Positions 10,053 through 43,199 of a DNA stretch of 51,376 nucleotides are shown in pieces (the first letter of the stretch is position 1; every line of letters begins with the position of its first letter). Source of the stretch: a virus. The stretch covers positions 1 through 51,376 of the IMG/VR virus record IMGVR_UViG_3300020401_000022; one strand, 5' to 3'. Position numbers and translations under genes: made by a program. The notes beneath the pieces are model-generated. The model was not told the origin of the DNA, searched no databases, and was given only the letters and a program-made list of their open reading frames with translations.

Positions 10053-10384
10053 TAGCTATCTACCTTGGCGCCAGCTCTCCATTGATAACAAGACCAGTAT
10101 CTGGCTTTCCATTTTGGTCCTGGGTTATCACAATTATGTCTTGCTCTAAATGATGCTCTTCTGTCTGGGTCATCTCTTTTAATTTCCATGTTTGGGTCTC
10201 CAAACCTAACCATAACAACATTACCTTTTGGACCTTTTACATAAACCTTAAATTTAGATTTACCATCTTGAGTTCTTTGTGGGTCATTTAGTTTGACCTT
10301 TGTGCCTTGATACTCTGCTTCAGTAATGACATGGTCAAATACTTCATTACATTTCTCACAGCAAAATTCTTCAAAGTTTTTCAT
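10052..10384 (-). CDS. Conserved small cysteine-containing phage protein
   Basis: A 110-residue protein downstream of gp23. The N-terminus has CCEKC (residues 8-12). The C-terminal half carries RFGDPNMEIKRDDPDRRASF, then RARHNCDNPGP, then KARYWSCYQW. I recognise this RR-SFRARH-C-PGPK-KARYWSC-W signature as recurring in many phage head-region proteins of unknown function. Two cysteine clusters suggest a bound metal. A TATAAATA box directly precedes the ATG, placing this gene in its own late transcription unit after the gp23 terminator. No enzymatic activity can be assigned. Confidence 0.8.
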   Translation of the reverse strand: MKNFEEFCCEKCNEVFDHVITEAEYQGTKVKLNDPQRTQDGKSKFKVYVKGPKGNVVMVRFGDPNMEIKRDDPDRRASFRARHNCDNPGPKWKARYWSCYQWRAGAKVDS

Positions 10385-10388
10385 ATAC

Positions 10389-10396
10389 TATTTATA
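10389..10396 (-). promoter_or_regulatory. Late promoter box TATAAATA, leaderless arrangement
   Basis: A perfect T4 late -10 octamer ending four bases (GTAT) before the ATG at 10384. No Shine-Dalgarno fits between box and ATG. It lies inside the T-tract of the gp23 terminator. Confidence 0.65.
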
Positions 10397-10425
10397 TAAA
10401 AAAAGGGGAGCCGAAGCTCCCCTTT
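10396..10425 (-). terminator. Intrinsic terminator after gp23
   Basis: On the minus strand, AAAGGGGAGC (10425-10416), loop TTCG, then GCTCCCCTTT (10411-10402) form a perfect 10-base-pair stem with a stable UUCG tetraloop. It is followed by a run of Ts. It lies 22 bases past the gp23 stop and is the only strong GC-rich terminator I found in the window. Confidence 0.93.
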
Positions 10426-10447
10426 AAAATTCGTTATCGAACGTGGC

Positions 10448-11938
10448 TTACACGTTGTCAACTCTGAATTTTCTGTAGTACATGTTCGAACCAGGAGCAT
10501 GTAAACCTTGAGATTGAATAGTTCTCGCAGCAAATGGGTTTGATACCATTCCGTAACGAGTTTTAAATCCAATTTTAGGTTGGAATGTTTCCTGACTAAC
10601 CGCACGAACCATTTGTAAAGGAACGTATGGGCAGTAGAACATACCTGCATCCATATTGTTAGTACCTTTATAACCAACAACAACATAGTCGCCGTTAGTT
10701 GCATAAGGGTCAACATAGACTTTAGTACGTCCGTTTAGTACTCCAGCAAATGTACCACTTGTTACGTCTACATTTAGATTATCTTGTAATCCAGATGTGT
10801 AGTCAAGTAGTCCAGCCATAGTTAAGGCAGATGCAACATTCGCAGAACAAAGGATAAAGTTTCCTTTACCTCTTCTTGTTTCAAATGCAATTTTATTACA
10901 TTCTTTTTCGATTTGCATCATTAGGCCTTTTTGTCTTTCAACAGACCATCTTCCTTGACCATCAGCGATTAAGTCAAAGATTCCGTTAGTTGTTAGACCT
11001 TGGGCACCATATTTAGCCTGAGATAGGATAGTGTGAACAACTTCCCTATTGATTTCCGCTAGGATTTCAGTAGAAAGAATGTTCGCTAATTCAGCCTCAG
11101 CGTCCAAACCGTGGACAGCTTTAAGGTCTTGAACTAGTTCCATAGTGTATTCACTTTTGAGAGCTCTTGTTTTAGCTTCAACAGCTGTTCTCTCAATTGT
11201 GAATGACATTTCACGGAAGTTATCCCCTTCTCCCTCTCTTGTAGCCATTCCGAAAGAAGTATTTCCTTCAGCTTGACCACTTGGCATATAGCCAGAGTTT
11301 AGGCCAGGGTTTGCAGTAACTGTGTCTACAAATGGGTCATTTACAGGTGTAATTGAACCAGTATCAGTTACAGGGTCAGAGTCAGCAGTGCTAACACCAT
11401 CATTTTTAGCTCTAGAGACAGCAAATGGGTTACCAGATGTGTCATCGTTGCTTCCAGCAGAGTGCGTATTAGGCGTACCTGTGTTAAACGCAGTACCTGA
11501 GAAGTTAGAGAACGGCTCATCGTACATAGCTTCGATACCAAGACCATTACCATCGCCACTAACACCTTCGTTAGTATTGTTGTATCTTGCTCTTAGTGCG
11601 AAAATAAGACCAGTTGGAGCGTTCATAGGTTGAACACCACATAGGTCAAATGCCATCATTTGTGGAACCGCACGTCTAACTAGAGATATAATGATAGGGT
11701 CATAACCAGCTCGACCAGTAGCGTTTACAGCACTATTAGTGTTTGCACCACTCATAGCACCACCAAAGCTAGCACCAGATAAAGAAGCTTCTTCTAAGTT
11801 CTGCTCCTCTGCCAATGCTTTCTCTGTATTTTCGAGAACTTGTGCAAGAACAGCTTTCTTATCACGCTCATCTACTTTTGGTAAATCTTCGTGTTCGATC
11901 ACTGGAGCCCATTTCTCTGTAAGTACGTCGTATGACAT
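10448..11938 (-). CDS. 23: gp23 major capsid protein
   Basis: A 496-residue T4-type major capsid precursor (HK97 fold). The N-terminal about 50 residues form the scaffold-associated propeptide; NLEEAS near residue 48-53 fits the T4 prohead protease rule (L/I-x-E then cut). After it come the conserved GYDPIIISLVRRAVPQMMAF segment and the ALRARY P-loop/E-loop region. T4 gp23 is 521 residues. A strong AGGAG lies 7 bases before the ATG, and a perfect terminator follows the stop, as fits the most abundant virion protein. The 68-base leader region before it holds no NATAAATA box. Confidence 0.96.
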   Translation of the reverse strand: MSYDVLTEKWAPVIEHEDLPKVDERDKKAVLAQVLENTEKALAEEQNLEEASLSGASFGGAMSGANTNSAVNATGRAGYDPIIISLVRRAVPQMMAFDLCGVQPMNAPTGLIFALRARYNNTNEGVSGDGNGLGIEAMYDEPFSNFSGTAFNTGTPNTHSAGSNDDTSGNPFAVSRAKNDGVSTADSDPVTDTGSITPVNDPFVDTVTANPGLNSGYMPSGQAEGNTSFGMATREGEGDNFREMSFTIERTAVEAKTRALKSEYTMELVQDLKAVHGLDAEAELANILSTEILAEINREVVHTILSQAKYGAQGLTTNGIFDLIADGQGRWSVERQKGLMMQIEKECNKIAFETRRGKGNFILCSANVASALTMAGLLDYTSGLQDNLNVDVTSGTFAGVLNGRTKVYVDPYATNGDYVVVGYKGTNNMDAGMFYCPYVPLQMVRAVSQETFQPKIGFKTRYGMVSNPFAARTIQSQGLHAPGSNMYYRKFRVDNV

Positions 11939-12006
11939 GGTTTTTCTCCTAAGTTAAAATTTAGTTAGATTATTAATTTTCTTAAAAATCGTTAGGTTTT
12001 TCATTC

Positions 12007-14184
12007 TTATTTAAGTGCAGTTTTAGACAAGTATCTAACGTACTGCGATACAGGGTTAGCCGTATCAGTTTCAGGTTGGCTTTCGCCTTCCTGACCTGTG
12101 AAGACTTCATCACCATAAGATGATAGAGCTTTAGCTGCAGTTTCCGGATTATCGAAGTAGGACTCTTTGAGAGCCTCTAGCTTCTCTTTGTACTCTTCAG
12201 TACTACCAGCTTCTACACTTTCACCCAATTTTTCTAGGCGTATCTTTTGGGTTTCAGTTAAGCCTTCACTAACTTCAGTAGTTATGTCGGCTCTTTCGAA
12301 AGCTAGCACTTTCTCTTGCAGCTTTTCAACAAGTTCGTCTTTCTCACTCATTTGGTCTTTATATCCTTCAACCGCTTCAGTGAGTTCATCAACAACCTTG
12401 ATATCATCTTCAGGTATGTCAATGTAATTCTTTTCAAATAAACCTTTAAGGTCTTTCATAAAAGTTTCAGCAATTTCTGTTCTAAGAGAATACTTAATTT
12501 CTAAAGCATTTTCTTTTAACCACTCTTCAGTAGCATAGTCAGTGTATTGTGAGAACTTCTCTTCTAAATCTTTCATTCTATCAGCATTTTCAGCTTCTAG
12601 TTTTTCTTCGATTTCTTTAACCTTAGCATTAACTTTTTCGTTAACAGCAGTTTCAAAGACGATAGCGGCTTTTTGTTTGAAGTCTTCGTCAAGGTCAACA
12701 TCTTCTTCCATGTCATCCTTAGCCATTTCTTCTGTGTCTTTAGCCATTTCATCTTTTTTGGACTTCATTTCTTTGACTTCATCTTCTTCTTCATCCATGT
12801 CGTCTTTTTTCATTTCGTCCATTTCGTCTTTTTCATCCATGTCGTCTTTAGCCATTTCATCTTTAGAATCTTTGGCCATTTCATCCATGTCTTTTTTCAT
12901 CTCCTTAGGCTCATCCTCTTCCTCGTCCATATCATCTTTTTTCATTTCTGATACGCCTTTTTTCGGATCGGAGTCGTCTTTCATAGGAGTTTCGATTGGG
13001 TCTTTACCTTGGTCATGAGGACCTTTGTCAGCCTCTGCTTGTTCAGCATCAACATCGCTTTTAGCCATATCTATTGTTGCTTTATCTTGAGGTGGTAAAT
13101 TCTTATCGTTGGCGTTTTTCTCAATTTCAGTAGGTTGCTTTTCAGCTTTTACTTCACTAGCATCCTCATCCATATCTTTTTTCATTTCTTTAGGCTCATC
13201 TTCCTCTTCATCCATATCGTCTTTTTTCATTTCTTCTACGGATTCATTGGCACCGTCTTTACGGACTTTAGCTAAATCTTTAGCATCGATATCGCCATCG
13301 CCATCTTTATCTAATTTCTTTTGGTCACCTTTGAGCTCTTCTTTTTTCTCTTTATCACCATGAGACATTTCTTCGACTTCTTCTTTTTCGTCTTCCATCT
13401 CATCCATGTCTTTTTTAGCCATCTCATCGACTTCTTTAGTCTCTTTCTTGTCTTTTTTATCTTTGATAGCTTTTTGTAGAGCAGGTGGTAATTTTTTCTG
13501 ACCAGCAGTTAATTCTTCTTTGACGTCATCTTCTTCTTCATCCATGTCGTCTTTAGCCATTTCTTTTGGCTCTTCTTTAGTTTCCTTAACTTCGTCCTCT
13601 TCCTCGTCCATGTCTTTCTTAGCCATTTCGTCCATGTCTTTTTTCATTTCCTTAGGCTCTTCTTCTTCTTTTTCCATGTCCTTCATTTCTTTTTTCTCTT
13701 TGTCGGCATGGGACATTTCTTTGACGTCTTCTTTCTCATCTTCCATTTCATCCATCTCATCTTTTTTCATTTCAGAGACTTTTTTCTTAGGGTCTGAGTC
13801 GTCTTTCATTGGAGTTTCAATTGGGTCTTTGCTTTGGTCATGTGCAGGTTTGTCAGCTTCTACTTCTGCACTTGCGTCTGATGCATTATTTTCTTTATCA
13901 CCACCGACATCTTTCATTGGCTCAGCGCCTGTTTCATTTTTGTTAGGCTCAGCAGTTGGAGCAGCTGCTTGTTTATTAGCTATAGTTTCTTTTTCAGCGG
14001 CAGGTAATTCTTTATCGTTGACGTTTTTTTGTACAGTAGTATCTTGACCCTCAGTGACTTCTTCCTCTTGAGGATTTTTGATTTCGTCTTTTTTAGTCAT
14101 GTCAGCTTCTTTTGCTTGAAGGTTTTTCTCCATCAAGTCTTCGATGACTTCAATAAGACCTTTTTTCTCTTCGTTATTTGACAT
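12007..14184 (-). CDS. 22: gp22 prohead core scaffold, greatly expanded
   Basis: This is the internal scaffold around which the capsid assembles and which the prohead protease later degrades. Residues about 498-725 (helical, from DEDFKQKAAIVF onward) correspond to the usual gp22 (T4: 269 residues). Residues about 30-495 are an added low-complexity domain of K/E/D/M repeats (units like MKKDDMDEEEDE and EMAKKDMDE). Residues 105-144 and 379-418 are near-identical copies (KDPIETPMKDDSDPKK in each), so part arose by duplication. Residues 292-303 form a canonical EF-hand/dockerin-type loop (DKDGDGDIDAKD). Position between gp21 and gp23 supports the call. A TGGAGC Shine-Dalgarno precedes the ATG. 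Confidence 0.92.
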   Translation of the reverse strand: MSNNEEKKGLIEVIEDLMEKNLQAKEADMTKKDEIKNPQEEEVTEGQDTTVQKNVNDKELPAAEKETIANKQAAAPTAEPNKNETGAEPMKDVGGDKENNASDASAEVEADKPAHDQSKDPIETPMKDDSDPKKKVSEMKKDEMDEMEDEKEDVKEMSHADKEKKEMKDMEKEEEEPKEMKKDMDEMAKKDMDEEEDEVKETKEEPKEMAKDDMDEEEDDVKEELTAGQKKLPPALQKAIKDKKDKKETKEVDEMAKKDMDEMEDEKEEVEEMSHGDKEKKEELKGDQKKLDKDGDGDIDAKDLAKVRKDGANESVEEMKKDDMDEEEDEPKEMKKDMDEDASEVKAEKQPTEIEKNANDKNLPPQDKATIDMAKSDVDAEQAEADKGPHDQGKDPIETPMKDDSDPKKGVSEMKKDDMDEEEDEPKEMKKDMDEMAKDSKDEMAKDDMDEKDEMDEMKKDDMDEEEDEVKEMKSKKDEMAKDTEEMAKDDMEEDVDLDEDFKQKAAIVFETAVNEKVNAKVKEIEEKLEAENADRMKDLEEKFSQYTDYATEEWLKENALEIKYSLRTEIAETFMKDLKGLFEKNYIDIPEDDIKVVDELTEAVEGYKDQMSEKDELVEKLQEKVLAFERADITTEVSEGLTETQKIRLEKLGESVEAGSTEEYKEKLEALKESYFDNPETAAKALSSYGDEVFTGQEGESQPETDTANPVSQYVRYLSKTALK
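12931..13050 (-). repeat. Second copy of internal gp22 duplication
   Basis: Encodes gp22 residues about 379-418. It shares AEADK-x-x-HDQ-x-KDPIETP then MKDDSDPKK-x-VSEMKKD with the copy at 13,753-13,872. The DNA differs at scattered, often synonymous, positions, so the duplication is not very recent. Confidence 0.85.
13276..13311 (-). other. EF-hand/dockerin-like Ca2+-binding loop coding segment in gp22
   Basis: Encodes DKDGDGDIDAKD (gp22 residues 292-303): Asp at loop positions 1, 3, 5, 7, Gly at 6, Ile at 8 and Asp at 12, matching the canonical 12-residue calcium loop. Flanking helices are only weakly suggested by the charged repeats. Confidence 0.6.
13753..13872 (-). repeat. First copy of internal gp22 duplication
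   Basis: Encodes gp22 residues about 105-144, the partner of the copy at 12,931-13,050. The segment before it (VQKNVNDKELPAAEKETIAN) also pairs with EKNANDKNLPPQDKATI in the second copy, so the duplicated unit may be about 70-90 residues long. Confidence 0.85.
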
Positions 14185-14209
14185 TTTGCTATAGCTCCAA
14201 ATATTAATT

Positions 14210-14217
14210 TATTTATT
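14210..14217 (-). promoter_or_regulatory. Late-promoter-like box AATAAATA before gp22
   Basis: AATAAATA 26 bases upstream of the gp22 ATG, leaving room for a short leader with a TGGAGC Shine-Dalgarno. It overlaps the 3' side of gp21, so gp22 can be transcribed separately. Confidence 0.5.
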
Positions 14218-14219
14218 TT

Positions 14220-14870
14220 TTATTGATTCTCTAAGAACCTTTTAAACAATTTTAGTTTTGTATTATTTAATTCTCTACGACCGGCCTCTGCTAACTCTTT
14301 TCGAGCTTTTTCAAGGTCGACCCTCTGCCATACACCTGATTCATATATCCAATCTGCTTGCTCATAAACTCCCTCAACGAAAGCCTCTTGAGCAGATGGG
14401 TCAAATACAACATCAGCTGCTGTAGTTAAGACAAAATCTTCTTGCACTTCATTATATCCCTGACGAGTCATTCTCAAAGAACCTAATCCTCTAGATGAAA
14501 CACCAATTTTTACGCCATCGTCAAGTAGATTTTCAACGATTTTACCCATCGGAGTACTAAGGACTTGTGCTTTTCCTTTATAATAATAACCATCTCTAGT
14601 TAACTCTTTAGTCATGATGGCTGCTCTTTCAGGGTTTACAACCGGTTCTGCCGGGTGGTTTAATTCTCCCAATGCTCTTGACTGAGAGATATAATCTTTT
14701 TTGTAAGCTTCTACAGCTTTGTCCATTACGTGTTGTGGATATACACGTCCATTTCTATTTTGTTTTTCTGCTTGTAAGAATGGACCTTGAATATATTTCT
14801 TCTTTTGTTCTTTACCTTCTGTCAGAACTTCGAGGTCATTGAATGAAATATCTTCTTTAATTAACTTCAT
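14220..14870 (-). CDS. 21: gp21 prohead protease
   Basis: A 216-residue T4-type serine protease that matures the head by cutting scaffold and capsid precursors. The catalytic His lies in ALGELNHPAEP (His72) and the catalytic Ser in KIGVSSRGLGSL (Ser125/126); both segments are diagnostic of the family. T4 gp21 is 212 residues. The N-terminus (EGKEQKKKYIQGPFLQAEKQ) and NRNGRVYP are also conserved. The ATG overlaps the stop of the upstream 126-residue gene by one base, with AGAGGG as a Shine-Dalgarno. Confidence 0.95.
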   Translation of the reverse strand: MKLIKEDISFNDLEVLTEGKEQKKKYIQGPFLQAEKQNRNGRVYPQHVMDKAVEAYKKDYISQSRALGELNHPAEPVVNPERAAIMTKELTRDGYYYKGKAQVLSTPMGKIVENLLDDGVKIGVSSRGLGSLRMTRQGYNEVQEDFVLTTAADVVFDPSAQEAFVEGVYEQADWIYESGVWQRVDLEKARKELAEAGRRELNNTKLKLFKRFLENQ

Positions 14871-15250
14871 TATTGCCCTCTAAATACTATGATAGCATTT
14901 GGTGATGTACCAGAAATAACTACATTACCTTTAGCTTGAACGATTGGAACTCCACCTGTCATGTTAAAGTCCCATTTACCAGTAGCAAATACCTTTCCAT
15001 CAATTGTAATAGCATTAGGACCCATGTTAGTCACTGATTCCATTTTGATTGGTCTCATATAGTGATTGATGTTCTTTTCATCTGAGTCAGATGCTGGTGA
15101 TTGGTCTGGGCCGTAAATATTTTTAATTTGATAAGTAAATGTAAAATCATCTGAATCAAGTGTTTCAGCTGTATCTACATGGTAGACTACTCTGTTTCCT
15201 TGTGATGAACCTTGAATCCCTACGGATTTACTAACAACTGTATTTGCCAT
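14870..15250 (-). CDS. Hypothetical structural protein, 126 residues
   Basis: A beta-rich, probably virion-associated protein between the prohead-core genes and the protease. It contains DSD tripeptides (TLDSDDF, ASDSDEK), the hallmark of virion proteins in this phage. The C-terminal half alternates hydrophobic and polar residues (NAITIDGKVFATGKWDF, then IIVFRGQ), as in jelly-roll or Ig-like decoration proteins. No homologue is recognised. An AATAAATA box ends four bases before the ATG. A head decoration or fibre-adaptor role is only a guess. Confidence 0.75.
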   Translation of the reverse strand: MANTVVSKSVGIQGSSQGNRVVYHVDTAETLDSDDFTFTYQIKNIYGPDQSPASDSDEKNINHYMRPIKMESVTNMGPNAITIDGKVFATGKWDFNMTGGVPIVQAKGNVVISGTSPNAIIVFRGQ

Positions 15251-15254
15251 ATCT

Positions 15255-15262
15255 TATTTATT
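15255..15262 (-). promoter_or_regulatory. Late-promoter-like box AATAAATA, offset 5
   Basis: Ends four bases (AGAT) before the ATG at 15250. A weak AAGGA lies directly upstream of the box, about 13 bases from the ATG, too far for an ideal Shine-Dalgarno. Confidence 0.5.
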
Positions 15263-15265
15263 CCT

Positions 15266-16021
15266 TTATGTACCTGCGTAATTACGAGACCTTGTTTTTA
15301 CTCTTTTCTTAGTAATTCTTGATTTTAGTGCAGCTAGTTTCTTTTTACCAGCTCCCATAGCTCTTTTAGCTCTTTTTAGCTTGATACCTGTTCTACGTAA
15401 TCTAGCTTTTTGTGTACCAGTTTGAGGTATACATCTATTACCCTGTAATCTAGTTCCTCTTGGGCATCTTTTTCTTTTAGTAATTCTTCCCTTAGACCTT
15501 CTAAAAATAACTCTTGCTCTACCAGGTTGAGCTTCATCAAATGTAGTCATTCCATCTTCTAATGGGTCATCCATATCTTCTGGTAAGTCTTGGTTTACTA
15601 AATCAAATGAATCAGCAAACATCGCATCTTTAATTTTTAAGTAATTATTTACACCATCATCGTAGTGGTCTCTCATACCATCAATTTCAAATTCTACATC
15701 CATCAACTCACCAAACTCATCAGGTATAAAGTCATAGAAAGTTTCTGGACATGAACATGTACCAGCATCTTTTTCATCATCTGGACAGTCACAAATAGTA
15801 TCGTTTAAGTCAGTTTCAAGAGCTTCATCTAATTCGATTTCATAATCAAAATCAACTACTTCTTGAAACTTTTCAATTGCTACTTCGTCATGTATTTCTT
15901 GTAAAGTATCTTCGTCAATAATATGGTCTGATGATACAGCAATACCTTCAGATACCTGTGCTTTTACCTTAGCACGGTATTCATCAAACTTATTACTTTT
16001 CCAGTCTCTAAGATTGCTCAT
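15266..16021 (-). CDS. Putative prohead-core or head protein, acidic N-half and basic C-tail
   Basis: A 251-residue protein with two contrasting parts. Residues 1-170 are strongly acidic and contain a cysteine cluster (CDCPDDEKDAGTCSCPE, about 88-104). Residues about 172-251 are very basic (RRSKGRITKRKRCPRG, then KLKRAKRAMGAGKKKLAALK) with a second cysteine pair. Its place next to a gp67-like gene and before gp21 matches where T4 has gp68, a prohead core protein, but the sequence itself does not let me assign gp68. The basic tail could bind DNA or the acidic scaffold. The start overlaps the upstream gene by 14 bases. Confidence 0.75.
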   Translation of the reverse strand: MSNLRDWKSNKFDEYRAKVKAQVSEGIAVSSDHIIDEDTLQEIHDEVAIEKFQEVVDFDYEIELDEALETDLNDTICDCPDDEKDAGTCSCPETFYDFIPDEFGELMDVEFEIDGMRDHYDDGVNNYLKIKDAMFADSFDLVNQDLPEDMDDPLEDGMTTFDEAQPGRARVIFRRSKGRITKRKRCPRGTRLQGNRCIPQTGTQKARLRRTGIKLKRAKRAMGAGKKKLAALKSRITKKRVKTRSRNYAGT

Positions 16022-16190: not shown

Positions 16191-16194
16191 AATT

Positions 16195-16202
16195 TATTTA
16201 TA
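16195..16202 (-). promoter_or_regulatory. Late promoter box TATAAATA, offset 5
   Basis: A perfect octamer ending four bases (AATT) before the ATG at 16190. AGGGAG lies immediately upstream of the box, so it would not be on the mRNA if transcription starts at the normal late-promoter distance. Confidence 0.6.
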
Positions 16203-16207
16203 CTCCC

Positions 16208-21173: not shown

Positions 21174-21181
21174 TATTTATT
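21174..21181 (-). promoter_or_regulatory. Late-promoter-like box AATAAATA before gp18
   Basis: Lies 32 bases upstream of the gp18 ATG, giving a conventional leader that carries the AAGGAG site. Confidence 0.5.
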
Positions 21182-23093: not shown

Positions 23094-23471
23094 TTACTCT
23101 TTGCCTAATAACTCTAACAAATCTTTCGTGTTTAGTTTTACGTTGAGATTGTTATTTGTCACATTGCTATCTTTTGTGCCGCCTTTATTAATACGTTCCA
23201 CACGGATGTGATGGTCCATAAGTTGGCCTGCAATATTACCTAGCGTTTGTGCCGTATTAGATGCCACTTCAATGGCTCGCGGGTGCTCGGACTCCTGCGC
23301 GAGTTGAACAGCACTATCAAGTACGTCTTGAAGTCTCTCGCTTGCAGCGTACAGGACTTCCCTGGCATACTCGTAGTCATCTTGACGATGTTGTACTAAT
23401 TTGGCTACTTGACCTTTGGTATCTTTGACCTCGGTATCTAGTTCAGTTAGTTGTTTATCATCTTTTTCCAT
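23094..23471 (-). CDS. 16: gp16 small terminase subunit
   Basis: A 125-residue helical protein that recognises DNA and regulates gp17 (T4 gp16: 164). Two long helices are visible: EYAREVLYAASERLQDVLDS and AIEVASNTAQTLGNIAGQLM with HHIRVERI, which form the coiled-coil oligomerisation core in this family. Position directly before gp17 supports the call. The DNA of this gene has noticeably more G/C-ending codons than its neighbours. TATAAATA ends four bases before the ATG and no Shine-Dalgarno is present. Confidence 0.88.
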   Translation of the reverse strand: MEKDDKQLTELDTEVKDTKGQVAKLVQHRQDDYEYAREVLYAASERLQDVLDSAVQLAQESEHPRAIEVASNTAQTLGNIAGQLMDHHIRVERINKGGTKDSNVTNNNLNVKLNTKDLLELLGKE

Positions 23472-23475: not shown

Positions 23476-23483
23476 TATTTATA
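23476..23483 (-). promoter_or_regulatory. Late promoter box TATAAATA for gp16, offset 5
   Basis: A perfect octamer ending four bases (GAGT) before the gp16 ATG at 23471. It is one base away from an opposing box for the divergent plus-strand gene. Confidence 0.65.
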
Positions 23484-23484
23484 G

Positions 23485-23492
23485 TATAAGTA
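23485..23492 (+). promoter_or_regulatory. Late-promoter-like box TATAAGTA for the divergent oxygenase gene, offset 5
   Basis: TATAAGTA (one mismatch to TATAAATA) ends four bases (TAAT) before the plus-strand ATG at 23497. It mirrors the gp16 box. Confidence 0.5.
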
Positions 23493-26357: not shown

Positions 26358-27424
26358 TTTAATGGCTTACTTAATTCTTCCCAACTAGTTTCATAATCAT
26401 TATCACCGTCAGCATAACCCATGACACCTAGCTTTTCGTATTCAGGTATCAGTTCATCATGCAACAGTCCAATCTTTTTAAGGTTAGGCATAATCCTACT
26501 AAATAATACATCTTGGAATTGTGTTTGAAATACATTCTCTTTCATATAGTTTTCAGTCTCATCAAAGTCTAATCCATATTGTTCCCAAACTTCAAATGCT
26601 CTTAATCTATTTCTGCTCACTGTACAAGCTTCCAAAGCAAATTTAGCTCTATCTAATTGGTCTTCTTCAGATAATGTCTTAACAAAATCAGCCAAATAGT
26701 TAATACCAAAAGTCACATGTCTAGCTTCATCTCTTATTATAAGTTCTAACATTTCTTTAAACACTGGGTCTCTTGTGCCTTCTTTTGCTGCATTAAAAGC
26801 AGCTAATGCTAGTCCCTCAATAATAACTTGCATACCAATAAATTTTAAATCCCATCTTTCATCAGTTAATATCTTATCTAATAAACCTTTTAGTGCTCTT
26901 CCAATTGGCCAGCTTTTTCTAAGTCTTGTTTGTATATACTTATTGAAACATTCTACATGTCTAGCCTCATCAAATGTTTGAGAAGCTGCATATAGTTTAG
27001 CATTAAATGTAGGTGCACATGAAGCTAATTGAGATGCAACAAGTAAAGCTCCTTGTTCTCCATGTAGGAACTGACTAACAGCCCATGAATTCATATCACT
27101 TAAAAATGCTATCTTCTTATCTTTATCCCATGTCTTGTATACTGGATGATTTGCCCATTGATTGTCTTCAAAGTCAAATTCTTCATCTTGCATACCAATA
27201 AAGTTTGGTGTCCAATCTACATCTACCTCTACATCCCAATTTAATTTCTTGCCCAAGTCATACAATTTTCTAATTCTATTATCTTGAACAGTATAGTCCC
27301 AATTGTATGAACCAGTCAAAGGTGTTTGAAAAATTTCTACAACATCTACTGGTAGAGACTTTTTAGGATAAGTACCATCAAACTCTATTATTTCTTGTGG
27401 ATTCTTTTTTTCTTGTATTATCAT
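26354..27424 (-). CDS. Ferritin-like diiron oxygenase
   Basis: A four-helix-bundle diiron protein. Numbering from Met at 27424 (356 residues), the iron ligands are Glu123 (FLHGEQGAL), Glu153/His156 (FDEARHVE), Glu203 (IIEGLAL) and Glu233/His236 (RDEARHVTFG): the full E...ExxH...E...ExxH set. This resembles the ribonucleotide-reductase R2/AurF/acyl-ACP-desaturase superfamily. It is not a normal R2 by overall sequence, and the reaction is unknown. I chose 27424 because ATGA overlaps the desaturase stop; a longer frame from 27472 is open. Its pairing with a desaturase suggests lipid or small-molecule oxidation. Confidence 0.78.
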   Translation of the reverse strand: MIIQEKKNPQEIIEFDGTYPKKSLPVDVVEIFQTPLTGSYNWDYTVQDNRIRKLYDLGKKLNWDVEVDVDWTPNFIGMQDEEFDFEDNQWANHPVYKTWDKDKKIAFLSDMNSWAVSQFLHGEQGALLVASQLASCAPTFNAKLYAASQTFDEARHVECFNKYIQTRLRKSWPIGRALKGLLDKILTDERWDLKFIGMQVIIEGLALAAFNAAKEGTRDPVFKEMLELIIRDEARHVTFGINYLADFVKTLSEEDQLDRAKFALEACTVSRNRLRAFEVWEQYGLDFDETENYMKENVFQTQFQDVLFSRIMPNLKKIGLLHDELIPEYEKLGVMGYADGDNDYETSWEELSKPLK

Positions 27425-28203
27425 TTTTTTAGGAGTAGTATAAACGGCTTTACGGGGTCGAGTTCCCACCACTTTTCACCTGGAAACATATTTGAAGGCC
27501 TGTGATGATGGTTGTTGTGCCAGTTTTCTCCTAATGCTATCGGTAGCATCCAAGGTGTATTTTTACTATCTTCTCTAGTTTCATATGTTCGATAACCACT
27601 CATATGATTCCAATAATTACTCATATTGGTACTAAATACACCCATGAATCCTGGTACAATACCTAAGAATAACAGTGCATTAAGTCCGCCAAAAGCGAAG
27701 AGTAAAGCATAGTAAGACAGAATAATAAGATGATACCAATCGTGAAAGAAGCCATGTACTTTATCTTTTAACATATGACGTGCATACATTAAAGCCGCAC
27801 TTGGCTTATCTCTAAATAATCTATCATCATAAAAAGAAAACAGGATTTTCCATCCATGTTCATGTGGAGAATGTGGGTCATACTCCTTATCTGTATAATG
27901 GTGGTGTTGTCTATGCATCATCACCCACGCTAATGGCGAACCGGTATTTGCGAGTATGCCAAGTAAGGAAAAAGCATACTCGACTATCTTATAAGTCTTA
28001 AATGACCTATGAGATAATAGCCTATGATATGTAAAATTAATTCCAAGAGCTATAATTGCAAACCACATAGCAAATGCTGCTACCCACCAACCAGCTGCTA
28101 CTGGTAAAGTGAAAGCATATATAACTCCGGCTAAAAGTAAGAGATGCTGATATGGAAACCATTCAGACCTCGGACGCGTAAATTGTTTAATATAGTTAAT
28201 CAT
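27421..28203 (-). CDS. Membrane fatty acid desaturase
   Basis: A 260-residue integral membrane diiron desaturase. The three histidine boxes are intact: HRLLSH (60-65), HRQHH (97-101) and HNNHH (229-233). Hydrophobic helices lie at about residues 20-55, 74-95 and 155-190. The layout matches the delta-9 acyl-CoA/acyl-lipid desaturases, which introduce a cis double bond using O2 and electrons from a carrier. Length is near that of short bacterial members. First gene of a three-gene minus-strand operon with an AATAAATA box before its ATG. It is an unusual phage gene and may remodel host membrane lipids late in infection. Confidence 0.9.
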   Translation of the reverse strand: MINYIKQFTRPRSEWFPYQHLLLLAGVIYAFTLPVAAGWWVAAFAMWFAIIALGINFTYHRLLSHRSFKTYKIVEYAFSLLGILANTGSPLAWVMMHRQHHHYTDKEYDPHSPHEHGWKILFSFYDDRLFRDKPSAALMYARHMLKDKVHGFFHDWYHLIILSYYALLFAFGGLNALLFLGIVPGFMGVFSTNMSNYWNHMSGYRTYETREDSKNTPWMLPIALGENWHNNHHHRPSNMFPGEKWWELDPVKPFILLLKK

Positions 28204-28207: not shown

Positions 28208-28215
28208 TATTTATT
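28208..28215 (-). promoter_or_regulatory. Late-promoter-like box AATAAATA for desaturase operon, offset 5
   Basis: Ends four bases (CTTT) before the desaturase ATG at 28203. No Shine-Dalgarno follows it. It makes the desaturase operon a candidate late transcript. Confidence 0.55.
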
Positions 28216-34429: not shown

Positions 34430-34433
34430 GCAT

Positions 34434-34441
34434 TATTTATA
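34434..34441 (-). promoter_or_regulatory. Late promoter box TATAAATA, offset 5
   Basis: A perfect octamer ending four bases (ATGC) before the ATG at 34429. Two other ATGs lie nearby, but only the one at offset 5 opens the long frame. Confidence 0.6.
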
Positions 34442-34447
34442 ACTGTT

Positions 34448-34672
34448 TTAAGGTTTTAGAAATTCTGGTTTGTCAAAAAAGATAAACATAGTAATGAATG
34501 GTAATATTCCCATACCAATCACAAATACTGATGGTAAGAAAACCATCCAGTACATAGGATTCTTACACATAAAGTCTAGGTCTTTATTATTCATACCTCT
34601 CTTTTTGTCTTCTTCAGTGTACTCTGGATAAGATAAGCTTTCTTCGAATTTTTTGACGTGGTCTGGTTTCAT
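34448..34672 (-). CDS. Small membrane protein linked to the cytochrome
   Basis: A 74-residue protein: a charged N-terminal half (residues 1-38) and one hydrophobic helix at about 43-66 (MVFLPSVFVIGMGILPFITM), with a single cysteine at 36. The ATG overlaps the cytochrome stop (ATGA), so the two are made together. It could anchor or dock the cytochrome, or mimic a small subunit of a respiratory oxidase. This is an inference from linkage; I do not recognise the family. Confidence 0.7.
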   Translation of the reverse strand: MKPDHVKKFEESLSYPEYTEEDKKRGMNNKDLDFMCKNPMYWMVFLPSVFVIGMGILPFITMFIFFDKPEFLKP

Positions 34673-35100
34673 AGAGTATCAATATATGCTTGTATGTCTT
34701 CCATATCTTGAGTAGATAAATTAGCAGCTTGTCCCCACATTAGTGCTGACTGTGCACCTCTAGTTTCACCATTCTTATACTGTTGTAGCATTTTAACAAT
34801 GGATGTACTACCTGATAATTTAGGACCAATACCACCTTCACCATTTACACCATGACACATATTACAATTTACATATAACTTGCCACCTCTATCAGCTGGT
34901 GTTTCTTGTTGCATTGCTACTCTTTTAGCTTCTAATTGCTCTGAGAATGTACCATACTTAGCAGTATACTCTTCATAACATTCTCCCCAACAACCATGAT
35001 TGTCTGTATATCCTTTCACTTCAGCGTTTGTCACAGTTGCATAAATAATGCCTACGATACCAAAGATACCGATTGCGGCTGTCAATATTGCATGTTTCAT
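34669..35100 (-). CDS. c-type cytochrome (class I, mono-haem)
   Basis: A 143-residue exported cytochrome. A hydrophobic signal or anchor spans residues about 4-22, with a possible signal-peptidase site after TNA (26). The haem motif CNMCH is at 79-83, followed by GIGPKL, and Met121 (SALMWGQ) is a likely axial ligand. DMEDIQAYIDTL is the usual C-terminal helix. The domain order fits small cytochrome c domains that pass electrons in the periplasm. Two further cysteines (37, 41) precede the haem domain, which is unusual. Maturation would need host enzymes. A cytochrome c is rare in phages. Confidence 0.9.
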   Translation of the reverse strand: MKHAILTAAIGIFGIVGIIYATVTNAEVKGYTDNHGCWGECYEEYTAKYGTFSEQLEAKRVAMQQETPADRGGKLYVNCNMCHGVNGEGGIGPKLSGSTSIVKMLQQYKNGETRGAQSALMWGQAANLSTQDMEDIQAYIDTL

Positions 35101-35104
35101 AGTA

Positions 35105-35112
35105 TAATTATA
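35105..35112 (-). promoter_or_regulatory. Late-promoter-like box TATAATTA for the cytochrome, offset 5
   Basis: TATAATTA (one mismatch to TATAAATA) ends four bases (TACT) before the cytochrome ATG. It also contains a sigma-70-like TATAAT, so early use is possible. Confidence 0.45.
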
Positions 35113-35123
35113 CCAAGCTTCAA

Positions 35124-35131
35124 AATAAATA
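35124..35131 (+). promoter_or_regulatory. Late-promoter-like box AATAAATA for the glycosyltransferase cassette
   Basis: AATAAATA 18 bases before the ATG at 35149. A TAAGG Shine-Dalgarno lies between them, so this start has a conventional leader. Confidence 0.5.
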
Positions 35132-35148
35132 GATTATAAGGTTATAAT

Positions 35149-37246: not shown

Positions 37247-37890
37247 GAATTGGAGACAAATACGGACCTGAATATGAAGATTATTTAAGGTCTAAAATAC
37301 CTAACATAGATTTTGTAAGAACATCAGACTGTAGATTTAAACTGCAATGGAATAAAGTTGGATTTATGGACTTGCCTACTAGTGACCCAATTGTTGTAAT
37401 TGATATTGATATTTTATTAGTAAATGATTATATGGAATTGATAGAATATCCTATTGAGAAAGGTCAGTTTCTTGGTCTAAAATCTTGGTGGAAAGATACG
37501 TCTCATCCTGGCTATAGTCTAAATGGTGCTTTTTACAAGTATTATCCCAAAGACTGTAAGTATATCTACAAGAAATTATGCTCGGACCCTCAGTATTGGA
37601 TGAACCACTACATTTCATCCGGCATAACACATGGTCCAGTAAATGGTGAGCAGTATTTTGTAGAGGATTCAGTAAAAGAACAGTTAGAACTAAAATATGT
37701 GCCATCTTCTTGGTTTGGTAAAATGATTTTAAATCCAGGAAGTAAATGGCTAAATGATTGTAATGACGCGTATCCTGGTGATTATTTTTATGATAATAAA
37801 AAGGAAGTGTTTAATCCTTCTGTGAAGCTTGTGCATTTTCAAAAGACACGTTCGCTTCATGGATTATGGAAAACAACTCCACAGGAGTAG
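37222..37890 (+). CDS. Glycosyltransferase-like protein 3
   Basis: A 222-residue protein with VVIDIDILLVND (Asp61, Asp63) as DxD and an N-terminal VLAVRIGDKYGPEYEDYL strand resembling the two genes upstream, but shorter before the DxD. A third member of the same local family. Its last 80 bases overlap the convergent structural gene at 37,811, antisense and tail to tail. Confidence 0.7.
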   Translation: MGTKVLAVRIGDKYGPEYEDYLRSKIPNIDFVRTSDCRFKLQWNKVGFMDLPTSDPIVVIDIDILLVNDYMELIEYPIEKGQFLGLKSWWKDTSHPGYSLNGAFYKYYPKDCKYIYKKLCSDPQYWMNHYISSGITHGPVNGEQYFVEDSVKEQLELKYVPSSWFGKMILNPGSKWLNDCNDAYPGDYFYDNKKEVFNPSVKLVHFQKTRSLHGLWKTTPQE

Positions 37891-38569
37891 ATGCTTTTCT
37901 TATTCTTGATTTAATATCTTTACTAGCATCTCTTACGGCCGGAATATCGAATACTTCGATTTTCATTCTAAATAAATCTTCTTGACTGTAGTTTTTAGCC
38001 ATGTGTTCTACAGATATAGTTGGTACTTCAACAGGTACCTCTTCTACTTTTTCAACTACTTTTTCTATGACTTCTTGTTCAGATTCTAATTTACCACGAA
38101 TTTCATGTTCAATCTGAGCTCTTAATTCGTCTTCATCGACTTGACTGTTAAGTATTCCACCAGAGTCTTTCCAGTCTTTAAACTGTTGATATTCTTCAAT
38201 GGCCTCATCTTCAGCTTTCCAAAAGGCTTTAGTATCTTCATCAATATCATCTATCGTGTATTGTTGTAATATTTTTGAGAAGAATGTGCCTGGACCAGAT
38301 GCGTTAGCTGCATGATTTTCTACTCTACCCCAGCCTTCACTATCAAAGTATCTAGCTTGCACTAAAGTTCTTTCTTCATCAAGCCATCTTACATTTTTAA
38401 TTGTAAGCTTACCATTTATCTCTTCTCTTCTTTGACCTTGATTGTTTAATACAGCACCACGTTTGACCTGCATCTTTTCACGAGTTGTCTCGTTTCCTTC
38501 ACGGTCATACATCTTTATATCTGCCGATGTAAAATCTGGTTTATCTTCTGTATATTCGTCGTTTGCCAT
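37811..38569 (-). CDS. Hypothetical structural-region protein
   Basis: A 252-residue acidic, mostly helical protein. Residues 1-95 include TIKNVRWLDEERTLVQARYF (beta-like). A coiled-coil segment with EHEIRGKLESEQEVIEKVVE then KVEEVPVEVP lies at about 150-185, and the C-terminal helix reads FRMKIEVFDIPAVRDASKDI. Located at the head of the tail-fibre/neck cluster and preceded by an AATAAATA box. A virion or chaperone role is plausible from position. Family not recognised. Confidence 0.72.
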   Translation of the reverse strand: MANDEYTEDKPDFTSADIKMYDREGNETTREKMQVKRGAVLNNQGQRREEINGKLTIKNVRWLDEERTLVQARYFDSEGWGRVENHAANASGPGTFFSKILQQYTIDDIDEDTKAFWKAEDEAIEEYQQFKDWKDSGGILNSQVDEDELRAQIEHEIRGKLESEQEVIEKVVEKVEEVPVEVPTISVEHMAKNYSQEDLFRMKIEVFDIPAVRDASKDIKSRIRKASTPVELFSIIHEANVSFENAQASQKD

Positions 38570-38573
38570 ATAT

Positions 38574-38581
38574 TATTTATT
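38574..38581 (-). promoter_or_regulatory. Late-promoter-like box AATAAATA, offset 5
   Basis: Ends four bases (ATAT) before the ATG at 38569. The TAG stop of the upstream gene and an AGGA lie right before it. Confidence 0.5.
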
Positions 38582-38582
38582 C

Positions 38583-39581
38583 CTACGCCGGATTAGCAAG
38601 CGAGAGATAATAAGTCGCTTGTGCCGTTGCTGAACCTGACGGTGTTGAAGTTGATGAATAAGTTGGGTCACTAAAAGACTGTGTTTGAGTTTCTGTAGTT
38701 TGTCTAGTGTCTGTAAAAGAACCTCTATTTGAACTACCACCTGGGTCTGAAGTCACCACTGTATATTGTAATTTTGATGCTGCCACTTTATTAATAAGCG
38801 CAGGTATACATGCTTGGTCTATAAAACTTGTAGCTTGGTAAGCACCAGTTTCATCTATTGATGCAACTTCTTTTACTAAAGTACCATTCCACATTACTGG
38901 TTTTATATCCGTACCAGGTGGTGTATCTAATGCTGTTTTTACCCATAATTTATGAGTTGTTGTACCAGCAGAATATGTTGTATCACTATGCCAAGTACCA
39001 CAGTCTACCCATGTACCTGCACCACCACTTGAAGGAGCTGATGTACTAATTCTATATGAACCTACTTCATCACCAGAATACATATCTACTAAACATTGAG
39101 AAATAATTTCATCAAAATAATCATCATTATATCCTGTTGCAGTTCTTAATGTAGAAGGTGATACAAATTTTAAGTATGAATATTGGTCATTAGCAGAAAA
39201 TGCTGTACCTAAAGTAGATGCTGACCTGTTTTGGTGATAAGCATAAGTTGCTACAGTGCTTGTTCCTAAACCTGGAAATGAAGGATAGTCATCACCACCA
39301 GAGTTATTTCTTGCTTGTGTGGCGGTTTGTTGTGTAGAAGCTGTATCTGTAGCTGAACCAATTGATGTCCAACCTGATACTGAACCTACGTTTAAAGCAC
39401 CAGCTGGACCTGTACCAGATGATGTTTGTCCATTGGCAGCATTTACACCAGTAGATGATGTGTGATAGTAATTTAAGAAAGATGCATAACGTTTTCTGAT
39501 ATTATATTGTAGACGGTCTAACTCAGTGTCAGACATCTGTTTTAATCCTGAAGTTCCGTTTATCTTTAATGGTCTTGCCAT
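38583..39581 (-). CDS. Virion structural protein (tail or neck associated)
   Basis: A 332-residue Ser/Thr/Gly-rich protein. The N-terminus MARPLKINGTSGLKQMSDTE then LDRLQYNIRKRYASFLNYY is a pattern I associate with structural proteins in marine T4-like phages. Residues 45-110 and 285-330 are low-complexity (GTGPAGAL, TSTPSGSATAQATY), as in exposed fibres. SQCLVDMYSGDEVGSYRIS is a globular part. A TAAGG Shine-Dalgarno supports the start. Its exact place in the virion is unknown. Confidence 0.75.
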   Translation of the reverse strand: MARPLKINGTSGLKQMSDTELDRLQYNIRKRYASFLNYYHTSSTGVNAANGQTSSGTGPAGALNVGSVSGWTSIGSATDTASTQQTATQARNNSGGDDYPSFPGLGTSTVATYAYHQNRSASTLGTAFSANDQYSYLKFVSPSTLRTATGYNDDYFDEIISQCLVDMYSGDEVGSYRISTSAPSSGGAGTWVDCGTWHSDTTYSAGTTTHKLWVKTALDTPPGTDIKPVMWNGTLVKEVASIDETGAYQATSFIDQACIPALINKVAASKLQYTVVTSDPGGSSNRGSFTDTRQTTETQTQSFSDPTYSSTSTPSGSATAQATYYLSLANPA

Positions 39582-39589
39582 AATTTACC

Positions 39590-41761
39590 TTACACTAATA
39601 ACGACCCAGAAAGAACCGTCAATCCATCTTTATCTTGTATAATTAGAGATTGAGTACTTGAGAAACTCTGACCTGCAACTGATAGTGATAGAGATTGTGG
39701 TGATAATACTGATGATGAATCAATAGCTCTCCACTCTGCATATCTATATGAACCATCTGAGTCAGTGTTATTCATACCAGGTTTTACTGAGTGCTTAACA
39801 ATATTCTTTTCTGTTCTTTCTGCTGAAGACATCTCCAATGCTTTAGTTTGTGCAGTTGGGTCATCTATTAGAGTAGCATCTAAGAAGTAAATTTCTGCCG
39901 CTCTAAATCCAGCAAATGTCCTACCTGTTTCTGTTTGTTTGTTTAAAATTTCTATTACCAATCCATCAAAATGTGCATCGGTATCTGTACCAGTTCTTAC
40001 AACTATATTTCTTCCATCTGAATCATCAGTTGTTGGTAGATAAATTCTCTTACCAAATAAATCAGAGTCATGCTCTGAATCATACATAACTGATATGAAG
40101 TTATAACCTGTACCTCTTGGTGAACCTTCTGAATCTGAATCGTATACACCCATGAGACCAGAACCCATAGAGTTTCTTTGAATTGCTGTACCTTTCCTAC
40201 CTGCTCTTGTTGCATAGTCAGAATCATTTAATAAGTTAACAATTTTTCTTGCAATACCAGCTTCTGAATCTCCAACATCGATATGTAATACTTTATCTTC
40301 TGAATCAGCAGCAGCTTGATTTACTAATGCACCATAAGGTACTGAGAATTCTGAATCTGGATTACCTGAGAATGAACCACGTCTGTTAAATACAACTTGC
40401 ATGTGGTGGGTTTCTGAATCCACAGAGTCAAATCTTGGTGTCTTATTACTGTTATCTTCTAACCAAAGTGAACCATTCTCTACATCAAATGCTGGTGGTG
40501 TAGCACTTACAACAGCAACTGCGTTTAGTGTCACAATTTCATCTGCACCAGTAAATGCGGCACCTCTTATTTTAAATCTGTTATTTTCAGTGACACCTAT
40601 TTGACCTGGTGCTGTTTCATCTGAGTCAATTGTACCAATATTACCCACCATATTTTTCAGGGTAATACCTTTTCTTGCATATATAGGTGAATTTGCTATT
40701 TCATTTATACCAAATGTAGATGTTTCCATCACTTCACCAGATGATGCAATACGTGGAGTAGTTTCATCACCAAAGAAGAAAGTAATCTCTACACGTTTTG
40801 CAAAGTCAGAATCATTATCTGAATCTCTCTTCAAGAAGAATGTATCTGAATCTGTTGGTACAAATTTGAATAGTGGTGTGATTGAATGGTCTGTAGTTTG
40901 TACAAATTTATCTGCAGCTTCTACTTCTAATTTTTTATCTCCACCATAAATGTAAACAATAGATGTATTTACCTTATCTATTTCAGCAATAATGTTTTGG
41001 TCCATAGAGTTAAGAGAAGCTGATGCATTTACAGCATTAGCTATTCTTGTAGCTATTCCAGCTGATGTTAAATCTGAGTCTATATTAAATGATATATCTA
41101 CAATACCACCACCAAATTTACTACCGTGTACTGCATTTACTGGAGTAACGTCTGAATCTGTAGTACCATCTGAGTCATGCAATAATAACTTAAGCTTATT
41201 ACTGTCAGACCTATTTCTAAATGCTTTTCGTACTGGTATGTGTCTTACCATATAAGCTTTACCGTCACCATTATTGACAGTTGAATCTCTACCTGAACCT
41301 GTAATTCCAGTAAGAGTTCTTGTACCTTCTGAATCTGTAAATGTTGGTGTATAAGAATCTGAATCTCTGACAAAATTAAGCCTGAAATCTGAATCTAAGA
41401 AACCAGATTGTCTAATTCTTAATTTAACATTTAATCCTGCAGTGTCTGAGTCTAAAATTCTTCTTGAAATAATTCTTATCTGTGCACCAGATTGAAATTG
41501 CTGACCATAAGGTCTAAATCCAGGTAATCTATATTTGGAACCTGAAACCATTACCTTATTTACTTCTAAAATATCAGATGTACCATCTGAGTCTCTTGTG
41601 ACTGTAGGTCTTTTTGTATAAAGCTTTCTTGTGGATAGGTTAATTGCTATCTCACCTTGTTCAATTTGGTCAGTAGTCGGTTGACCTTCAGCATTCAAAC
41701 CCGTAGATAAACTTCTACGGTGTTTATAAACTGGTCTGCCATTTGAAAAGTTAATAGTCAT
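39590..41761 (-). CDS. Putative tail fibre/whisker structural protein, DSD-rich
   Basis: A 723-residue beta-rich protein. The N-terminal EQGEIAINLSTRKLYTKR (about residues 35-52) is the short repeat often seen at the base of phage tail fibres. Through the rest I count 16 DSD and 7 DSE tripeptides at irregular spacing, mostly between predicted strands. Two related segments (HIPVRKAFRNRSDSNKLKLL and MQVVFNRRGSFSGNPDSEF) may be repeats of one domain. No enzyme motif. Likely surface-exposed and possibly host-recognising. Confidence 0.75.
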   Translation of the reverse strand: MTINFSNGRPVYKHRRSLSTGLNAEGQPTTDQIEQGEIAINLSTRKLYTKRPTVTRDSDGTSDILEVNKVMVSGSKYRLPGFRPYGQQFQSGAQIRIISRRILDSDTAGLNVKLRIRQSGFLDSDFRLNFVRDSDSYTPTFTDSEGTRTLTGITGSGRDSTVNNGDGKAYMVRHIPVRKAFRNRSDSNKLKLLLHDSDGTTDSDVTPVNAVHGSKFGGGIVDISFNIDSDLTSAGIATRIANAVNASASLNSMDQNIIAEIDKVNTSIVYIYGGDKKLEVEAADKFVQTTDHSITPLFKFVPTDSDTFFLKRDSDNDSDFAKRVEITFFFGDETTPRIASSGEVMETSTFGINEIANSPIYARKGITLKNMVGNIGTIDSDETAPGQIGVTENNRFKIRGAAFTGADEIVTLNAVAVVSATPPAFDVENGSLWLEDNSNKTPRFDSVDSETHHMQVVFNRRGSFSGNPDSEFSVPYGALVNQAAADSEDKVLHIDVGDSEAGIARKIVNLLNDSDYATRAGRKGTAIQRNSMGSGLMGVYDSDSEGSPRGTGYNFISVMYDSEHDSDLFGKRIYLPTTDDSDGRNIVVRTGTDTDAHFDGLVIEILNKQTETGRTFAGFRAAEIYFLDATLIDDPTAQTKALEMSSAERTEKNIVKHSVKPGMNNTDSDGSYRYAEWRAIDSSSVLSPQSLSLSVAGQSFSSTQSLIIQDKDGLTVLSGSLLV

Positions 41762-41765
41762 ATAT

Positions 41766-41773
41766 TATTTATC
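41766..41773 (-). promoter_or_regulatory. Late-promoter-like box GATAAATA, offset 5
   Basis: GATAAATA ends four bases (ATAT) before the ATG at 41761. GGGA overlaps the left side of the box. Confidence 0.5.
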
Positions 41774-43187
41774 CCATTGTAATTATCTTAGCTTGACCTT
41801 TAAATTTAGTCTGAGAGAAGATAATAGCATTACCTGCAGTATCTGTCACTGTTGTCACTGTGACTGGTATATACATTTGGTCAGCTGATTCAAATCCAAC
41901 ATATCCATCATGTCCATAATTGTTTGGATTTCCTGATATTGCATCTGAATCGGCACCTTGTGTACCCCATACAGTTTTAAATCTTTGTATTTTATCTGAG
42001 TCCGGTGATGCTGATGTCATTTCAGAATCAATTGCATTGTAAAGCTGAGTTCTAATGAAACCTAATACTTCTGTATTTACATCAGATAATGTACCAGCTT
42101 TATATACCTTTTTGAAAACTTTTACATCCATCACCGATGCTAAGTTTGCGAATTCTCTATTTTGCTGTGAATCAGTAAAAGCAGCTGCAGTCATTGGCAA
42201 CATAAATCTACCAGCTGGTACTTCTTCTACTCCATTTATATTAAATGCAGCTGTAGTCTTATGCCAATCATCGGAATCAAAATTATCTGTAAATATTCTT
42301 ATAGAATCTGAATCTCTTGCCGCTGACCTAATATTATGTCGTACAAATACCCAACCAATATCATGTCCTGAATAAGTAAACTCATAAATTGAGTGTGGTG
42401 AATTTAAAAGTACTGGAGATTTAACACCATTCGAACTTTGTACACCAGAAAAGTTTACTGCATATCCTAAAGCTCTTTTATCAAAAGTAGCTCCTTCTGA
42501 ATCAAATGGTATACTAAAAGCTGAGGCATTAGTAAATATACCATCTACATTTCTAATATGTGTATGTCTATTTCCAGGAGCTGATATACCACCAGAATTA
42601 TTTGACCATTCAGCTCTTTGCTCTGAATCTTTAAATCTAAATGGTGTTGTCCACACTGACATACTTCTACTATTAGAGAATGAACCTCTTGATTCTCTAA
42701 TTTTAATTACATCACCTGGTTGAGCCAATGGAAGTACAACATGAATAGTTCTATTTGTATCAATACCAGATGCATCCACATCTATCATTTCACCTCTTGA
42801 TGCAAAGTAAAATTCTGAGTCTAGATATAAATCTGGTATGCCATCACCATCTGAATCAGCATCTAATCTCCAACCTCTTGTTCTATCTAATAATTTAAAG
42901 CTTGAAGGTTCACCAAACTCAGAATCTCTTGTAGAATCAGGTGTTCTAAATGAAATGTTTAGGTATTTACCTGCTGGATGTAGCTCACCGACACGGTATT
43001 CAAACTCTCCGAATCTTCTGCGATAACCATAAAAAGGTTTGTCTACATCTTGGCCGATAGGATTATCACCAAATTTACTATATACATCTGAAAACAACTC
43101 ATTTATCTTTGACCCACCTTTTCTAGCTGAGTCTCCTGTACCTGAGTCTGGGGATATTCCTAAATTGATTAAATCTTTTGTCGCCAT
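41769..43187 (-). CDS. Virion structural protein with GTGD-type N-terminal motif
   Basis: A 472-residue protein. The N-terminus NLGISPDSGTGDSARKGGSK then INELFSDVYSKFG is the SPDSGTGD...K-N-F...Y motif seen at the start of many phage fibre and neck appendage proteins; the gene at 45,173 has the same motif. The rest is beta-rich with many DSD/DSE motifs (LDADSDGDGIPDLYLDSEF, ARDSDSIRIF). LDADSDGDGIPDL also resembles a thrombospondin-type calcium repeat. Likely tail or whisker component. Confidence 0.75.
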   Translation of the reverse strand: MATKDLINLGISPDSGTGDSARKGGSKINELFSDVYSKFGDNPIGQDVDKPFYGYRRRFGEFEYRVGELHPAGKYLNISFRTPDSTRDSEFGEPSSFKLLDRTRGWRLDADSDGDGIPDLYLDSEFYFASRGEMIDVDASGIDTNRTIHVVLPLAQPGDVIKIRESRGSFSNSRSMSVWTTPFRFKDSEQRAEWSNNSGGISAPGNRHTHIRNVDGIFTNASAFSIPFDSEGATFDKRALGYAVNFSGVQSSNGVKSPVLLNSPHSIYEFTYSGHDIGWVFVRHNIRSAARDSDSIRIFTDNFDSDDWHKTTAAFNINGVEEVPAGRFMLPMTAAAFTDSQQNREFANLASVMDVKVFKKVYKAGTLSDVNTEVLGFIRTQLYNAIDSEMTSASPDSDKIQRFKTVWGTQGADSDAISGNPNNYGHDGYVGFESADQMYIPVTVTTVTDTAGNAIIFSQTKFKGQAKIITMG

Positions 43188-43191
43188 GTTT

Positions 43192-43199
43192 TATTTATT
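43192..43199 (-). promoter_or_regulatory. Late-promoter-like box AATAAATA, offset 5
   Basis: Ends four bases (AAAC) before the ATG at 43187. No Shine-Dalgarno between box and ATG. Confidence 0.55.

Follow-up and report, generated by a model that had tools for sequence, protein, structure and literature searches.

The late promoters of IMG/VR record IMGVR_UViG_3300020401_000022 (positions 1-51,376, the whole stretch of 51,376 nucleotides analysed here and referred to as the window) point to gp55-dependent transcription that starts on the A of the AUG codon and thus yields leaderless late mRNAs, a reading to which a probability of about 0.86 may be assigned. PHROGs assignments in the window include gp23, gp22, gp18, gp17, gp16, gp55 and UvsY, among others, and identify it as part of a T4-like phage genome. 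According to the proposed mechanism, RNA polymerase with gp55 would open the DNA at ATAAATA, and the first base of the RNA would be an A that follows a pyrimidine and lies a constant number of bases past this box, namely five in the clade of the window and six in T4 and in the phages of the spacing-5 group described below. In the leaderless genes the starting A would be the A of AUG. The mRNA would then carry this codon at its very 5' end, and translation would follow the leaderless pathway, in which the ribosome recognises the 5'-terminal AUG. Dependence on gp55, gp33 and gp45 is assumed by analogy with T4; a gene for the sigma factor, as the sequence-only reading had claimed, is present in the window and was confirmed by alignment:

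5718..6416, minus strand: gp55 late sigma factor, 232 aa (PHROG 234, E 2e-40)

A pattern search recovered all nine of the previously claimed minus-strand starts at which ATAAATA ends four bases before the ATG, and these are the only exact ATAAATA-N4-ATG matches in the window. The two claimed single-mismatch boxes proved real as well, both differing at the sixth position of the octamer. The boxes are as follows:

10389..10395, minus strand: late box ATAAATA, spacer GTAT, before ATG 10384 of a 110 aa gene (PHROG 7595)
15255..15261, minus strand: late box, spacer AGAT, before ATG 15250 of a 126 aa gene between gp21 and gp22
16195..16201, minus strand: late box, spacer AATT, before ATG 16190 of a 60 aa gene
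23476..23482, minus strand: late box, spacer GAGT, before ATG 23471 of the small terminase gp16
23486..23492, plus strand: variant box ATAAGTA, spacer TAAT, before ATG 23497 of the divergent partner of gp16
28208..28214, minus strand: late box, spacer CTTT, before ATG 28203 of a fatty-acid desaturase-like gene (PF00487)
34434..34440, minus strand: late box, spacer ATGC, before ATG 34429 of a 139 aa gene
35105..35111, minus strand: variant box ATAATTA, spacer TACT, before ATG 35100 of a cytochrome c-like gene (PF00034)
38574..38580, minus strand: late box, spacer ATAT, before ATG 38569 of a 252 aa gene
41766..41772, minus strand: late box, spacer ATAT, before ATG 41761 of a 723 aa gene, overlapping the end of the upstream gene
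43192..43198, minus strand: late box, spacer AAAC, before ATG 43187 of a 472 aa gene with a gp9/10-like N-terminus

Two of these genes encode proteins of recognisable domain type: the desaturase-like gene (27421-28203, minus strand; PF00487, E 1e-15), which has a predicted leaderless late promoter and belongs to a family with eight distinct spacing-4 sites, and the cytochrome c-like gene (34669-35100, minus strand), the variant box of which likewise lies at spacing 4.

The fixed spacing is observed directly. Only 0.09 exact sites would be expected at spacing 4 by chance, against the nine found (Poisson P about 1e-15), and (ATAAATA, 4) is the most frequent heptamer-distance pair of the window overall. 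A scan of box-to-start distances, which the sequence-only reading had proposed as a check, gave a peak at spacing 4, where 9 of the 20 ATAAATA copies stand before the ATG of an open frame of 50 codons or more; permutations of the same seven letters reached at most 2 at this spacing, and the reversed pattern gave no match in the window. Since the 20 copies compare with 29 expected, it is not the heptamer that is over-represented but only its placement. It had further been stated that the spacer varies and that nothing but its length is fixed; the length is indeed constant, but all nine exact sites also have a pyrimidine as the final base of the spacer.

The box together with its spacer occupies 11 bp. 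Six of the boxes (those of 15250, 16190, 34429, 38569, 41761 and 43187) lie in operon-internal gaps of 7-18 bases, and the divergent ATGs at 23471 and 23497 are separated by 25 bp that contain both of their boxes. Leaderless late promoters would explain how compact genomes fit a promoter into gaps of 7-18 bases. Neither the Rfam scan nor the tRNA scan gave a hit in the window.

In other genes of the window the same box stands farther from the ATG, with a Shine-Dalgarno-like site in between. These genes had been singled out before, with a box 18-32 bases away, and the measured distances are 31 (gp18), 25 (gp22) and 17 bases (35149 gene):

14210..14216, minus strand: late promoter with leader for gp22 (start 14184), spacing 25, with a T at +4, an A at +5 and a Shine-Dalgarno site before the ATG
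21174..21180, minus strand: late promoter with leader for gp18 (start 21142), spacing 31, with a T at +4, an A at +5 and AAGGAG before the ATG
35125..35131, plus strand: late promoter with leader for the 35149 gene, spacing 17, with a T at +4 and an A at +5
2158..2164, minus strand: box 7 bases upstream of ATG 2150, T-A at +4/+5 predicting a 3-base leader

The first three would thus use the same promoter, but with a leader and a Shine-Dalgarno-like site, their boxes being 17-31 bases upstream, and the spacing-7 site fits a 3-base leader. Meanwhile gp19, gp20 and gp23 have a Shine-Dalgarno site and no exact box near the start. The predicted leaderless set comprises gp16, gp25, gp2, the gp9/10-like gene, the tail tube cap, the desaturase-like gene and auxiliary genes. 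The proposed division into leaderless minor and accessory genes and led major structural genes hence holds as a trend: minor and accessory genes are mostly of the leaderless type, but a tail-tube-family protein and, in relatives, the large terminase and a helicase are also predicted to be leaderless, so that the split is not strict.

As the box occupies positions -11 to -5 of the leaderless-type genes, no Shine-Dalgarno site can be accommodated there at normal spacing. The Shine-Dalgarno hybridisation energy of the nine genes is weaker than that of the other genes of the window, though not significantly (P 0.35); it failed to separate them because four operon-internal sites (15250, 16190, 38569 and 41761) carry GGA-like purines before the box, 11-13 bases before the ATG; purines at -12 to -15 are seen at some sites. 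Read-through mRNA could also be translated at these four starts, judging by the purines. It is possible that leaderless mRNA is supplemented by operon read-through translated from a weak AGGA-like site, an addition to the main explanation that we consider tentative and somewhat less probable than its absence. Purines are found at 4 of the 6 operon-internal boxes of the window and at none that follows a terminator or belongs to a divergent pair, but the pattern appears to rest on few families.

Relatives were retrieved from IMG/VR with gp23 and gp17 queries, and six named genomes and longer contigs were added. The clade of the window comprises uncultured contigs with a gp23 at least about 70% identical to that of the window, and the spacing-5 group comprises more distant phages with a gp23 near 50% identical. 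In the former, spacing 4 occurs at 75 distinct sites that belong to 18 unrelated gene families, whereas spacings 3, 5 and 6 do not occur; in the latter, 56 sites at spacing 5 were found in 21 families, with none at 3, 4 or 6. The spacing-5 group is heterogeneous, and a few families supply many of its sites; HTVC008M contributes 9, Mosig 6 and Melnitz 3, and metagenomic groups are represented too. Neither spacing 4 nor spacing 5 occurs in T4, Syn9 or P-RSM4. In the gp23 tree, every spacing-4 contig falls inside one clade (support 0.99), and no contig of the tree mixes the two spacings.

The clade-specific shift is also evident in orthologous genes. The spacing is 4 in relatives G001 and G002 and 5 in HTVC008M for both gp25 (48% identical) and gp2 (28% identical), and the tail-tube-family gene following gp23 (PHROG 45 in both; 23% identity over 107 aa) differs likewise. 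In HTVC008M, 9 of 9 spacing-5 sites (6280, 7562, 16007, 18916, 19456, 31132, 49760, 75559 and 142360) end on start codons annotated in GenBank, which were chosen independently by others. Within the clade of the window, the box of the 10384 gene is kept at spacing 4 in L010, L012, L014 and L017, the family of the 16190 gene has 13 distinct spacing-4 sites, and G001, a 109 kb relative, has 14 sites, in all of which a pyrimidine precedes the ATG. GTG or TTG at spacing 4 was found in only 2 families versus 18 with ATG, a comparison of raw family counts that depends on how common GTG and TTG starts are in these genomes. In the relatives, variation of the box at spacing 4 is tolerated mainly at the sixth octamer position, at which both variant boxes of the window differ (ATAACTA 7, ATAATTA 3 and ATAAGTA 2, versus a mean of 0.2-0.7 at other spacings).

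The base immediately before the ATG is a pyrimidine in 75 of 75 spacing-4 and in 55 of 56 spacing-5 sites, compared with a background, at ATGs 12-45 bases from a box, of 40% in the clade of the window and 46% in the spacing-5 group. A Y(-1)R(+1) initiator with +1 on the A would produce such a pattern. Promoters with a leader and a Shine-Dalgarno site, being independent of the leaderless genes, provide a separate estimate of the start position, for which family-weighted counts were used. In the clade of the window, the pyrimidine-A step of these led promoters peaks at box+5 (0.55; A 0.77) and is rare at box+6 (0.12). In T4 it peaks at box+6 (0.45; A 0.68), and in cyanophages at box+6 as well (0.50). 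The T4 late box spans -13 to -6, which places +1 at box+6 (PMC1524935), and because the T4 peak coincides with this published position, the measure can be regarded as calibrated. In the spacing-5 group the step is modest at box+6 (0.31, with 0.27 at box+5), the A peak being clear (0.76). The distance to the ATG and the distance to the initiator hence shift together, 4 with +5 and 5 with +6.

The sequence-only reading had put +1 on the start codon by the T4 rule. The leaderless idea itself is strongly supported by the relatives, but this placement needs a correction, as the T4 rule (PMC1524935) puts +1 on the second base of the ATG, T, rather than on the first. A start on the A would fit the clade of the window only if the distance from box to initiation were one base shorter than in T4. 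This shift is displayed by the Shine-Dalgarno promoters of the clade itself. If transcription started at box+6 nevertheless, as the T4 literature position would have it, +1 would be the U of AUG, translation would have to begin at a downstream codon or on upstream transcripts, and spacing 4 would be a coincidence; given that the led promoters of the clade have their A, preceded by a pyrimidine, at box+5 and that an ATG at the exact offset is conserved in 18 families, this seems very unlikely.

Upstream elements of the promoters were inspected too. In 55 non-redundant clade sites no -35 element was found, as none of the positions between -43 and -16 exceeded about 0.23 bits. The base preceding the heptamer, i.e. 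the first base of the octamer, is weakly specified, being A or T in 51 of the 55.

Terminators abutting boxes are a further directly observed feature. At every locus inspected in both spacing groups, the hairpin and T-run after gp23 reach right up to the box of the following gene; in the window the predicted element is the following:

10402..10425, minus strand: predicted intrinsic terminator hairpin of gp23 (-19.8 kcal/mol), the T-run of which touches the box of the 10384 gene

With this arrangement, an upstream promoter could supply a leader only if its transcripts bypassed termination. Among orthologous loci the position of this terminator is kept and its sequence changes.

The sequence-only reading had itself offered an alternative, namely that AGGA plus box is a ribosome site of unusually long spacing. 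In this view, the box would be a translation element on a leadered or polycistronic mRNA and not a promoter. The purines are present at the four starts it had named; 5 of 18 clade families have GGA, AGG or GAG within the six bases preceding the box (P 0.018), versus 8% of led promoters, and there is a mild enrichment of G at -13 to -15. However, the motif is absent from 13 of the 18 clade families and from 18 of the 21 spacing-5 families (3 of 21 with it, P 0.40). Moreover, the same heptamer also stands 17-31 bases upstream of late genes led by a Shine-Dalgarno site, the change of spacing from 4 to 5 tracks the initiator shift in led promoters, and the terminators stop just before the box, all of which makes this alternative very improbable. 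Chance in an AT-rich genome, in favour of which one may note that ATAAATA itself is not enriched in the window, is refuted by the excess over expectation, the permuted and reversed controls and the replication in unrelated families.

It is probable that in one T4-like branch the late start moved one base towards the box and that many unrelated genes adjusted their spacing accordingly, from 5 to 4; they would have had to adjust, since a leaderless AUG tolerates no slack. The shift might lie in gp55, in the host RNA polymerase or in both. According to structural data, the gp55 polymerase reads the box as a -10-like element (PMC7892883). The gp55 of the window has a longer lysine-rich C-terminal part than the aligned gp55 proteins of spacing-5 phages and cyanophages. 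The length of this part as the sole cause of the shift was rejected: it is long in the window and its close relative G001, and less so in G003, which also has spacing 4.

The promoters described here resemble the gp55-dependent late promoters of T4 (TATAAATA) in the box, the gp55 homologue, the lack of a -35 element and the location upstream of virion genes. In this textbook system, however, every late box was found at least 12 bases before the start codon, which leaves room for a leader, and no ATG that opens a frame of 50 or more codons lies within 11 bases of an exact box, whereas in the window many lie at exactly 4; the start, at box+6 in T4, also appears to be one base closer to the box in the clade of the window. 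The late promoters of the cyanophages S-PM2, Syn9 and P-RSM4 (NATAAATA) have a heptamer identical to that of the window, and the first base of the cyanophage box is free (PMC2984593). Unlike in the window, boxes in Syn9 and P-RSM4 occur only at longer distances. The Pelagibacter phages HTVC008M and Mosig and the methylophage Melnitz have boxes fused to start codons like those of the window, but at spacing 5 rather than 4. In pelagimyophages, attempts to predict late promoters were unsuccessful according to a survey (PMC7029224), which boxes fused to starts may help to explain. For Melnitz, 15 late promoters were predicted, apparently without comment on leaders (PMC9004378). A -10 motif adjoining ORFs and giving leaderless mRNA is known from Deinococcus-Thermus (PMC12340547); it works alike, but there it is a host sigma factor that acts on bacterial genes, and there is no kinship with the phage case.

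No description of leaderless late mRNAs in T4-like phages was found in a literature search that lay mostly outside subscription papers. In aquatic T4-like phages, an entire class of late genes appears to be leaderless. The spacing may serve as a readout of the transcription start from sequence only, by which the start distance of the sigma-polymerase of uncultured phages could be deduced from their genomes, and a single-base evolutionary shift of the start becomes a directly testable question.

Two minor classes of boxes were noticed besides. Boxes two bases before an ATG (L035, L231, L267 and others) are rare, with four families in the clade of the window; a start on the AUG does not explain them. 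In the spacing-5 loci (L050, L053-L088, L111-L168, HTVC008M, Mosig and Melnitz), the tolerated one-mismatch box is CTAAATA, found 9 times at spacing 5 versus 0.2 elsewhere, and not, as in the clade of the window, a change at heptamer position 5; a box of the CTAAATA type has been reported for Aeromonas phage Aeh1 (PMC1524935).
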